Assembly (NCBI RefSeq): GCF_029269265.1
Contig: NZ_JARIXP010000001.1
Span: forward strand, 609,306-673,305
Direction: 5' to 3'
DNA from: Rheinheimera sp. 1928-s
GTDB lineage: Bacteria > Pseudomonadota > Gammaproteobacteria > Enterobacterales > Alteromonadaceae
DNA: 64,000 nt
Part shown: one piece after another, positions 19,062-51,624 of the stretch
Numbering within the stretch: position 1 is the first letter of the stretch
How the letters are laid out: each line of letters starts with the position of its first letter
The notes under the pieces: model-generated
The model's input: only the letters and a program-made list of their open reading frames with translations
Databases searched by the model: none
Told to the model about the DNA's origin: nothing
Program-made: the position numbers and the translations under genes

Positions 19062-19265
19062 ATGCTTATTTTAACGCGTCGTGTTGGTGAGACACTGATG
19101 ATCGGTGATGAAGTCACGGTCACGGTTTTAGGCGTCAAAGGAAATCAGGTTCGTATCGGTGTGAATGCACCAAAAGAAGTTTCTGTGCACAGAGAAGAGA
19201 TTTATATGCGTATTCAGGCTGAAAAAGGCACCCCTGGTGGCTTTAGCGGCGATGACGATCAATAA
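19062..19265 (+). CDS. csrA: Carbon storage regulator CsrA
   Basis: A 67-residue RNA-binding dimer that controls translation by binding GGA motifs in mRNA leaders. The protein starts [20 protein letters not shown], followed by [27 protein letters not shown], which keeps the RNA-contacting Leu4, Arg6 and Arg44 region. The ATG at 19062 follows AAGGAG with good spacing. The leader has three GGA triplets (19031, about 19039, and 19052 in the ribosome site itself), the arrangement expected for autoregulation. It lies between lysC and a tRNA-Ser/Arg cluster, the order common in gammaproteobacteria. Confidence 0.97.
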
Positions 19266-19530: not shown

Positions 19531-19607
19531 GGATGCATAGCTCAGCTGGATAGAGTACTCGGCTACGAACCGAGCGGTCGGAGGTTCGAATCCTCCTGCG
19601 TCCACCA
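19531..19607 (+). tRNA. argV: tRNA-Arg (anticodon ACG), copy 1
   Basis: A 77-base tRNA with encoded CCA. The anticodon stem CTCGG/CCGAG encloses CTACGAA, and the T arm is GGAGG TTCGAAT CCTCC. The acceptor GGATGCA pairs with TGCGTCC including one G-U pair. Its first adenosine in the anticodon is the target of TadA deamination in this isoacceptor. Confidence 0.97.
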
Positions 19608-19646: not shown

Positions 19647-19723
19647 GGATGCATAGCTCAGCTGGATAGAGTACTCGGCTACGAACCGAGCGGTCGGAGG
19701 TTCGAATCCTCCTGCGTCCACCA
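19647..19723 (+). tRNA. argV: tRNA-Arg (anticodon ACG), copy 2
   Basis: Identical over all 77 bases to the copy at 19531, indicating recent duplication or gene conversion. Its 3' end and the following terminator are themselves copied again downstream at 19893-19943. Confidence 0.97.
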
Positions 19724-19729
19724 CAACTA

Positions 19730-19753
19730 AACCTGCTAAGTGCAGGTTTTTTT
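19730..19753 (+). terminator. Rho-independent terminator of the tRNA operon
   Basis: AACCTGC/GCAGGTT stem, TAAGT loop, and a run of five or more T. An exact second copy lies 188 bases downstream. Confidence 0.9.
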
Positions 19754-19822
19754 GTGCCTAAAATTCAGCTAAATAGATCGGCGATGGTGGACGCAGTAGG
19801 TGAGAACCTCCGTCAGGTTCGA

Positions 19823-19892
19823 CAAAATCGCCGGGAGCGATTTTGGACGAGCGAAGCTCGGCCCGCAGGGCAAGGGGCAGGACGCCACTTGC
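19823..19892 (+). repeat. Three-hairpin GGA-loop element A
   Basis: Hairpin 1 is CAAAATCG/CGATTTTG with loop CCGGGAG, followed by GA. Hairpin 2 is CGAGC/GCTCG with loop GAA. Then come the core CCCGCAGGG and hairpin 3 GCAAGGGGC/GCCACTTGC with loop AGGAC and one mismatch. Compared with element B, every stem differs in sequence but remains paired, and the loops are the same. Confidence 0.85.
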
Positions 19893-19917
19893 AATCCTCC
19901 TGGGTCCACCACAACTA

Positions 19918-19941
19918 AACCTGCTAAGTGCAGGTTTTTTT
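19918..19941 (+). terminator. Duplicate of the tRNA operon terminator
   Basis: Identical stem, loop and T tract to 19730-19753. It lies after a CCA-ending acceptor-like sequence that lacks the rest of a tRNA. Confidence 0.85.
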
Positions 19942-19942
19942 G

Positions 19943-20015
19943 TTTTTCGCATCCCTGCGAAAAATCCCTTCGGGACCCGCCGTGCGGCGGTCCAAAAACG
20001 CTCCAGGCGTTTTTG
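19943..20015 (-). repeat. Three-hairpin GGA-loop element C, inverted 75-bp insertion
   Basis: Read on the minus strand, CAAAAACGC/GCGTTTTTG has loop CTGGA, followed by GA. CCGCC/GGCGG then has loop GCAC, followed by GT. The core is CCCGAAGGG, and finally TTTTTCGCA/TGCGAAAAA has loop GGGA. The order, the GA spacer and the core match elements A and B although the stems are unrelated. It is missing from repeat unit 1, so it looks like an insertion, bounded by TTTTTG on both sides. Confidence 0.8.
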
Positions 20016-20085
20016 TGTATCTAAAATTCAGTTAAATAGATCGGCGATGGTGGACGCAGTAGGTGAAAACCTCCGTCAGGTTCGA

Positions 20086-20156
20086 GCCATTTGCCGGGAG
20101 CAAATGGCGACAGCCGAAGGCTGGCCCGCAGGGCTCGTGGCAGGACAGCCACGAGC
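20086..20156 (+). repeat. Three-hairpin GGA-loop element B
   Basis: GCCATTTG/CAAATGGC with loop CCGGGAG, GA, CAGCC/GGCTG with loop GAA, core CCCGCAGGG, and GCTCGTGGC/GCCACGAGC with loop AGGACA. All three stems are perfect. The flanking inverted tRNA-acceptor copy begins near 20049. Confidence 0.85.
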
Positions 20157-20244
20157 AATCCTCCTGCCGCGAACTATTCGCTTCAACAGTTTCTCTTTTG
20201 CTCTTTCGAGTTCCTGCAGAGTTAAACCACCAAACCCCAACCAA

Positions 20245-49401: not shown

Positions 49402-49429
49402 AAGGCTGACCTTGTGTCAGCCTTTTTTT
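49402..49429 (+). terminator. rplS: Terminator of the rpsP-rplS operon
   Basis: AAGGCTGAC, CTTGT, GTCAGCCTT, then a T tract. It directly abuts the first 75-bp repeat. Confidence 0.92.
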
Positions 49430-49579
49430 ATTCGCAGCCATCCCTGGCGCTCACCCTTTGGGCCAATGCTTCGCATTGTTAAAAATTGATCCTGACAATT
49501 TTTTATTCGCAGCCATCCTTGGCGCTCACCCTTTGGGTCAATGCTTCGCATTGTTAAAAATTGATCCTGACAATTTTTT
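49430..49579 (-). repeat. Two tandem 75-bp three-hairpin GGA-loop elements (E and F)
   Basis: Two near-identical copies with a period of exactly 75 bases (49430-49504 and 49505-49579). Read on the minus strand, each has AAAAATTG/CAATTTTT with loop TCAGGAT, AA, then CAATGC/GCATTG with loop GAA. The core CCCAAAGGG follows, then GCCA/TGGC with loop GGGA or AGGA. The order is the same as in elements A-C at 19.8-20.2 kb. Copies differ at two or three positions. Confidence 0.8.
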
Positions 49580-51539: not shown

Positions 51540-51597
51540 AAAATTCGATTTTCACTCACATCGTCCATGATGCTCGCCTTCGGCAGCTGAAGCTGTG

Positions 51598-51624
51598 AAA
51601 AACGGCTATCTTGCCGTTTTTTTT
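51598..51624 (+). terminator. Terminator after the ThrE-family gene
   Basis: AAAACGGC, TATCTT, GCCGTTTTTTTT. Confidence 0.9.

Follow-up and report, generated by a model that had tools for sequence, protein, structure and literature searches.

Several described repeat systems resemble parts of the locus analysed here. RtT repeats (RF00391), which include the tyrT repeats (rttR) of E. coli K-12 with family scores of 133-138 bits, follow a tRNA gene in tandem and end in a copy of the tRNA 3' end. Inside ERIC elements, insertions of about 70 bp were reportedly described by Cromie, Collins and Leach in 1997. Small palindromic repeats without genes are furthermore known as REP, BIME and REPIN sequences and as YPAL, which according to the available excerpts of its descriptions is 168 bp long, duplicates 3 to 26 bp of target sequence (PMC2229807) and in its printed sequence also shows CAAGGATGG and CATGGATG (PMC2759123). 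On the RNA side, the consensus bound by CsrA is given in the accessible part of PMC7652899 as RUACARGGAUGU, with RsmE binding an ANGGAN hexaloop. We investigated a stretch of 64,000 nucleotides from Rheinheimera sp. 1928-s (NZ_JARIXP010000001.1, positions 609,306 to 673,305; referred to as the window), in which three structured elements, A, B and C, lie downstream of tRNA-Arg genes. All three represent one module, about 75 nt long, that is also found in ERICs, in rRNA and tRNA trailers and beside terminators, and A and B are RtT-like.

The module features four hairpins in fixed order: H1 (9 bp, loop CNGGA with a free N position), H2, H3 (CCC-GNA-GGG, enclosed by a G-C or T-A pair) and H4 (loop A(N)GGAN). 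In the initial annotation, A, B and C were described as paired, covarying stems with invariant loops around a CCCG(C/A)AGGG core. All three elements are present and fold as drawn there, with MFE z-scores of -2.3 for A, -4.3 for B and -3.6 for C (folded as 19943-20015), values that are equalled by 4, 0 and 1 of 200 shuffles, respectively. The last stem of A, however, contains one mismatch, the core is not plain sequence but itself the small hairpin H3, and the loops had to be corrected to the H1 and H4 forms given above. The stems of C had been called unrelated, but C retains the loop types of H1 and H4 together with the GGAC and the core. Further copies had been mentioned as D, E and F without coordinates, and the covariance model finds three, all on the minus strand (Table 1). 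Taken by itself and with one mismatch tolerated, the 12-mer of the core gives 4 matches in the window, a number reached by 13 of 100 shuffles and thus not significant, while the whole structure is significant, A, B and C each reaching E 2e-14 or better with model R1. This model was built on 10 copies, with C in the seed and A and B outside it; a second model, R2, was built on 49 matches. A and B each lie in one copy of a direct repeat of 138 nt; the two copies share 83% identity and differ, as judged by eye, mainly in the stems. Terminator-like hairpins number 3 in the stretch against 1.8 expected in shuffles.

Table 1. Module copies and neighbouring features, in window coordinates.
Feature	Position	Strand	Description
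csrA	19062..19265	+	Upstream of the tRNAs, context only; PF02599 90.1 bits
First tRNA-Arg(acg)	19531..19604	+	Rfam scan
Second tRNA-Arg(acg)	19647..19720	+	3' end repeated (direct and inverted) in units A and B
Intrinsic-terminator-like hairpin	19729..19749	+	After the tRNAs
RtT-like unit A	19780..19911	+	RF00391 1-130/130, 33.7 bits, E 7.8e-5, cut-off 45
Module A	19823..19893	+	H1-GAC-H2-H3-H4, T-loop position of partial tRNA-Arg copy; R1 61.7 bits, E 1.9e-14
Hairpin copy	19917..19937	+	3' of unit A; C directly beyond its T-run
Module C	19941..20015	-	Bare 75-nt unit adjoining second terminator; R1 95.5 bits (seed member)
RtT-like unit B	20043..20175	+	RF00391 1-130/130, 33.7 bits, E 8e-5, cut-off 45
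Module B	20086..20157	+	Site type as A, other stems; R1 64.6 bits, E 3.1e-15
Module copy, tandem pair 1	49429..49503	-	R1 38.5 bits, E 2.8e-8; R2 67.3 bits (in R2 seed)
Module copy, tandem pair 2	49504..49578	-	R1 36.1 bits, E 1.2e-7; R2 63.6 bits (in R2 seed)
Divergent module copy	51553..51621	-	R1 30.2 bits, E 4.5e-6; R2 42.8 bits, E 1.2e-7 (outside seed)

Further copies are abundant in the covariance-model search that the initial annotation had proposed. At least 50 matches were obtained in this genome (two of the 50, C12:647564 and C18:30, are identical including their flanks and could represent a single site at the end of a contig) and at least 61 in each of two complete sister genomes, the search of the three genomes giving 172 matches in total, of which 150 are listed. 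Of 147 relatives, 88 contain matches, among them all 22 genomes of the genus, and five genomes from other families of the order have 15 to 56 each; copy numbers are lower bounds because 33 to 150 candidates were scored per genome. The core pattern was matched in 21 of the 22 genus genomes, with the reversed-pattern control lower in 17, equal in 3 and higher in 2. When named genomes were scanned with a pattern, at least 116 stretches emerged, and the 80 loci examined include Pseudoalteromonas, Alishewanella, Halomonas, Methylomonas, Thioalkalivibrio, Pseudomonas and Stenotrophomonas as well as Serratia, Kosakonia, Phytobacter and Salmonella enterica subsp. diarizonae, a few carrying other labels (the betaproteobacterium Methyloversatilis and one archaeal-labelled metagenome bin). 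Copies occur partly in tandem and also in inverted arrays. A blastn search with the copy at 49429-49503 against plasmids and phages gave no match; other versions of the module do occur on plasmid records. In the literature searched, which lay largely outside the subscription journals, no description of the module was found.

The tandem units around modules A and B link the locus to the RtT family. Each consists of an inverted tRNA 3' end, a small hairpin, the module and a tRNA 3' end, and both share with RtT repeats the tandem arrangement after a tRNA gene and the terminal copy of the tRNA 3' end, shortened in unit B. The full-length RF00391 match is seen in E-value mode and stays below the curated cut-off of 45 bits, at which an Rfam scan shows no RtT. 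A and B are RtT-like tRNA-3'-end repeats, a point absent from the earlier reading, as is the mobile behaviour of the unit. The K-12 tyrT repeats in turn score 12.1 bits (E 0.26) against R2. The RtT cut-off is passed by a repeat beside Kosakonia tRNAs (L264, 57.5 bits) and by repeats in two genomes of the order (L329, 45.2 bits; L330, 45.5 bits), and these three bridge the window units and E. coli RtT. RtT matches were found in 9 of 40 relatives, 2 of which reach the cut-off; in 14 control genomes, E. coli alone matches. Given the plan of the E. coli tyrT repeats together with the bridging repeats, RtT is most plausibly a tRNA-3'-end repeat with the module in it. The T-loop position of partial tRNA copies is occupied in A and B and also at a locus beside tRNA-Ser(gga) (L032). 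At two other loci (L015, L019), relatives without GGA loops adjoin a repeat CTTTCTTTG..CAAAGAAAG and perhaps form a subclass like E. coli RtT.

We compared occupied and empty sites as well as flanks. C is a unit of 75 nt, as the genome of a sister species (G005) has the terminator and the flank without it. Copies are preceded by an A in 83 of 88 cases in the named set and in 84 of 91 distinct flanks from the genus; of 79 copies, 72 end in A and 65 are followed by A. At position -2, G is found in 60 of 88 flanks of the named set vs 16 of 91 in the genus set; being common in the named set only, it indicates that the target is not one motif. For site groups drawn from three genomes (99 for gene calls, 98 for hairpin and AAAA counts), a strong hairpin within 25 nt lies on the 3' side in 43 of 98 and on the 5' side in 12 of 98, with 12.6% at random places, and AAAA directly follows the copy in 57 of 98 vs 1.2% of random places. 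The test for a hairpin plus T-run was weaker (46 vs 27; random places 27%). No terminal repeats and no clear case of a target duplication were seen.

The orientation of neighbouring genes was assessed with a simple ORF caller, whose crude calls err in rRNA regions: among 97 site groups with a gene called 3' of the copy, the nearest such gene faces the module in 72, while the 5' gene reads into the GGA strand in 39 of 97, and in roughly half of the site groups a hairpin or A-run lies between module and 3' gene. Since the 3' gene is antisense towards the module, this orientation weakens a pure 3'-UTR decoy model and favours landing beside a hairpin and T-run. At one locus (L006), modules situated after rRNA operons lie in apparent copies of the 3' end of 5S. 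Three loci from three genera (L189, L213, L259) have, by our own reading, a module in the same codon of an IS110-type transposase gene, shifting its frame. At three others (L233, L247, L258), we read an in-frame 75-nt copy after ATGA at the start of an hsdS-like gene, which adds 25 codons. Modules at L064 and L057 adjoin hairpins that resemble the ends of an IS200-type element of this genome.

A second present-or-absent comparison comes from E. coli, where 137 of 5426 complete genomes have one copy each, 136 on the chromosome and 1 on a plasmid. The sequence around the copies inspected we take to be ERIC by its core CCCCAGGAGCTTAC...GTAAGTGACTGGGGTGAG, recognised by eye. The queA-acpH region exists in three states, namely no ERIC, ERIC alone and ERIC with the module, as seen in one, one and three of the chromosomes compared; the latter two states differ by 77 nt, with flanks otherwise almost identical. 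The query is covered over at least 80% in 805 of the 5426 genomes, ERIC-alone sites covering 82% and module sites 100%. The plasmid copy (L304 2500-2573; 74 nt by the model) also reads as lying within an ERIC, here from the occupied site. For the plasmid pESI, the available excerpt of PMC11225919 reports a 201-bp insertion in the leader of ybtA, treated as different from ERIC, and a transcription start 266 bp before the start codon. The E. coli plasmid of L304 contains the ybtA region including the Fur-box letters of that excerpt (PMC11225919) and, by our own reading, an ERIC with the module inside, and its ybtA stretch matches 172 plasmid records, 170 of them from Salmonella and 165 over at least 80% of the query. 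By inference from this plasmid, the 201-bp insertion upstream of ybtA on pESI is probably an ERIC plus module, which would probably place a module copy within the mapped 5' leader of the gene.

The reading we favour, with a probability of roughly 0.6, sees in A, B and C a mobile but non-autonomous module, about 75 nt long, whose moving form is a folded single strand. In support of mobility, a precise unit is present or absent at the compared sites (75 nt for C, 77 nt in the E. coli ERIC), copies are dispersed, partly in tandem, across the Gammaproteobacteria, and the GGA loops are kept while the stems change. An enzyme supplied in trans would recognise the folded strand by its shape, its GGA loops and its ends after A. 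Only copies with paired stems would keep moving, so that compensatory change would accumulate without the stem sequence being kept. In A and B the module sits in the T-loop position of tRNA-Arg 3'-end copies and thereby makes up an RtT-like repeat, whereas C is a bare unit beside the terminator. Against this reading count the negative search for a mobilising gene near the named copies, the lack of terminal repeats and of a clear target duplication, the differing base at -2 and the about equal folding of both strands. As mobility is read from the comparison of sequences, the present and absent pairs could alternatively represent losses.

A tentative alternative, to which we give a smaller though real chance, would make the module a regulatory RNA domain that binds CsrA/RsmA and serves as a decoy or as a control site in leaders and trailers, one CsrA dimer sitting on two GGA-loop hairpins about 45 nt apart. 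The H4 loop has GGA in 130 of 138 copies of the broad alignment set described below, with A(N)GGA.. closed by C-G in 113 of 138. For the named elements, where the search pattern left H4 free, H4 was found by script in 80 of 88 and has GGA in 70 of the 80. These loops fit the published consensus as far as the excerpt of PMC7652899 gives it, a csrA gene lies upstream of the window tRNAs, and one copy is probably located in a mapped 5' leader (ybtA on pESI; excerpt of PMC11225919). The rsmX model RF02144 also recognises A with the adjoining terminator, but the score of 31.8 bits (E 2.8e-4) falls short of the cut-off (56). H1, however, is a CNGGA pentaloop rather than ANGGAN, and because the named-genome pattern fixed this loop, the H1 GGA counts of the named set are not evidence; most SELEX hairpins in the excerpt of PMC7652899 are also short-stemmed. 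E. coli RtT units share the plan with no GGA in the H1 or H4 loops (own reading), which together with the antisense position at most site groups argues against CsrA binding as the original function.

Genus and broad alignments were fitted to the covariance model. The broad set (138 copies, 136 distinct rows) was sampled from 96 loci, of which 71 are from the 80 named ones (9 from Rheinheimera left out) and 25 were chosen from relatives. Double changes occur in 24 of 26 pairs in the genus set (46 distinct rows) as well as in the broad set. In the genus set 94.3% of cells are paired vs 67.9% in shuffles, with 0 of 500 shuffles as high, and the broad set contains 889 double-change cells, where shuffles give 259 and slid versions no more than 159. 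The covariation expected in the initial annotation thus exceeds the shuffle and slid controls in two sets, although these controls remove relatedness incompletely. In duplex DNA, a G·U and an A·C mismatch are one event viewed from opposite strands. Counted over distinct stems, the broad set has 48 G·U against 15 A·C mismatches (binomial p 4e-5), the genus set 37 against 20. By this excess, the fold of the GGA-bearing strand appears to be constrained, as RNA or as single-stranded DNA; the bias may have been helped by model-guided alignment and shared ancestry. Covariation and G·U excess together bear out the earlier suggestion of selection on folded RNA or single-stranded DNA beyond copying.

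The same data bear on the doubtful possibility that arm-to-arm template switching in DNA palindromes alone keeps the stems paired, in which case no selection on folding would be involved. This would agree with the near-perfect Watson-Crick stems, in which G·U is scarce, making up 64 of the 3120 standard pairs of the genus set, with the nearly even G·U and A·C counts of genus-set H1 (10 vs 8) and with the about equal folding strength of both strands. The G·U excess is, however, unexpected for correction at the duplex level, which would moreover erase the kept GGA loops and the tandem G·A/A·G mismatch found in H4 of 44 of 138 broad copies. As to the age of the changes, sister genome G005 has the stems of units A and B nearly as here, so the difference between A and B is older than the split, and hybrid copies with H2-H3 in common and a different H1 or H4 indicate that modules exchange parts. 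A and B are therefore best taken as two old module alleles rather than as a recent change, and the compensatory change is seen at the level of the family. Composite copies of about 200 nt by eye (L011, L033, L113, L056) contain an inverted half-module between H1 and H2 and have GGA loops on both strands.

In an equally doubtful combination of mobility and regulation, a transposable CsrA-binding RNA domain might wire genes into the Csr network, the RtT RNAs being a domesticated branch that has no GGA. If true, landing in leaders, in tRNA and rRNA trailers and in other repeats would link genes of many Gammaproteobacteria to Csr.

Least probable, and very unlikely in our view, is that a RAYT (Y1) transposase moves the module as a repeat of the REP/REPIN type. 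The module is indeed small and hairpin-rich, has neither a reading frame of its own nor a clear target duplication and forms tandem and inverted arrays. REP-type transposases, however, do not follow its copy number: NF047646 has no match in 8 of the 38 genomes for which at least 10 copies were scored (7 with zero and 1 absent from the listed positives), while it is present in 15 of the 20 zero-copy genomes listed, beyond which there are 39 more. Nor do they adjoin copies, as 0 of 20 RAYT loci carry the module and the RAYT of this genome has other flanks, so that these transposases are not supported as the mover. GTAG, which we take to be the REP tag motif, is missing from the module. No gene was found to travel with the module near the 80 named copies, where the largest protein clusters span 6 loci and are signalling proteins by our own reading; a further cluster, of 3 loci, corresponds to the IS110-type gene that houses the module.

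The many copies, in which the fold persists although the stem sequence is free to vary, make up a large natural data set, so that what sets such modules in motion and whether CsrA binds their GGA loops become directly testable questions. Compared with known systems, it shares with REP, BIME, REPIN and YPAL the small palindromic build that carries no genes, and differs from REP, BIME and REPIN in that no RAYT link was found. Like RsmX/RsmY/RsmZ and CsrB/CsrC it has GGA hairpin loops, together with an rsmX match below cut-off; the module, however, occurs in dispersed copies rather than at a single conserved sRNA locus, and its RtT relatives have no GGA loops. As in the reported ERIC insertions of about 70 bp, the chromosomal copies compared in E. 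coli correspond to 77 nt that an ERIC either has or lacks, but the module is also found at many non-ERIC sites and outside the Enterobacterales. The likeness to the RtT/tyrT repeats extends from the tandem position after tRNA genes to the GATGAGAA..GGTTCGA hairpin, the four-hairpin unit with CCCGAAGGG in the T-loop position and the unit end in GAGTA or similar, followed by ATCC...CCACCA. In contrast to E. coli RtT, units A and B have GGA in their H1 and H4 loops, derive from tRNA-Arg rather than tRNA-Tyr and have a 9-bp H1, the window has a terminator-like hairpin between tRNA and unit A, and the module also occurs outside tRNA repeats. In other words, one four-hairpin module links the tyrT/RtT repeats of E. 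coli, the extra sequence within ERICs and the repeats beside terminators, tRNA genes and rRNA genes.
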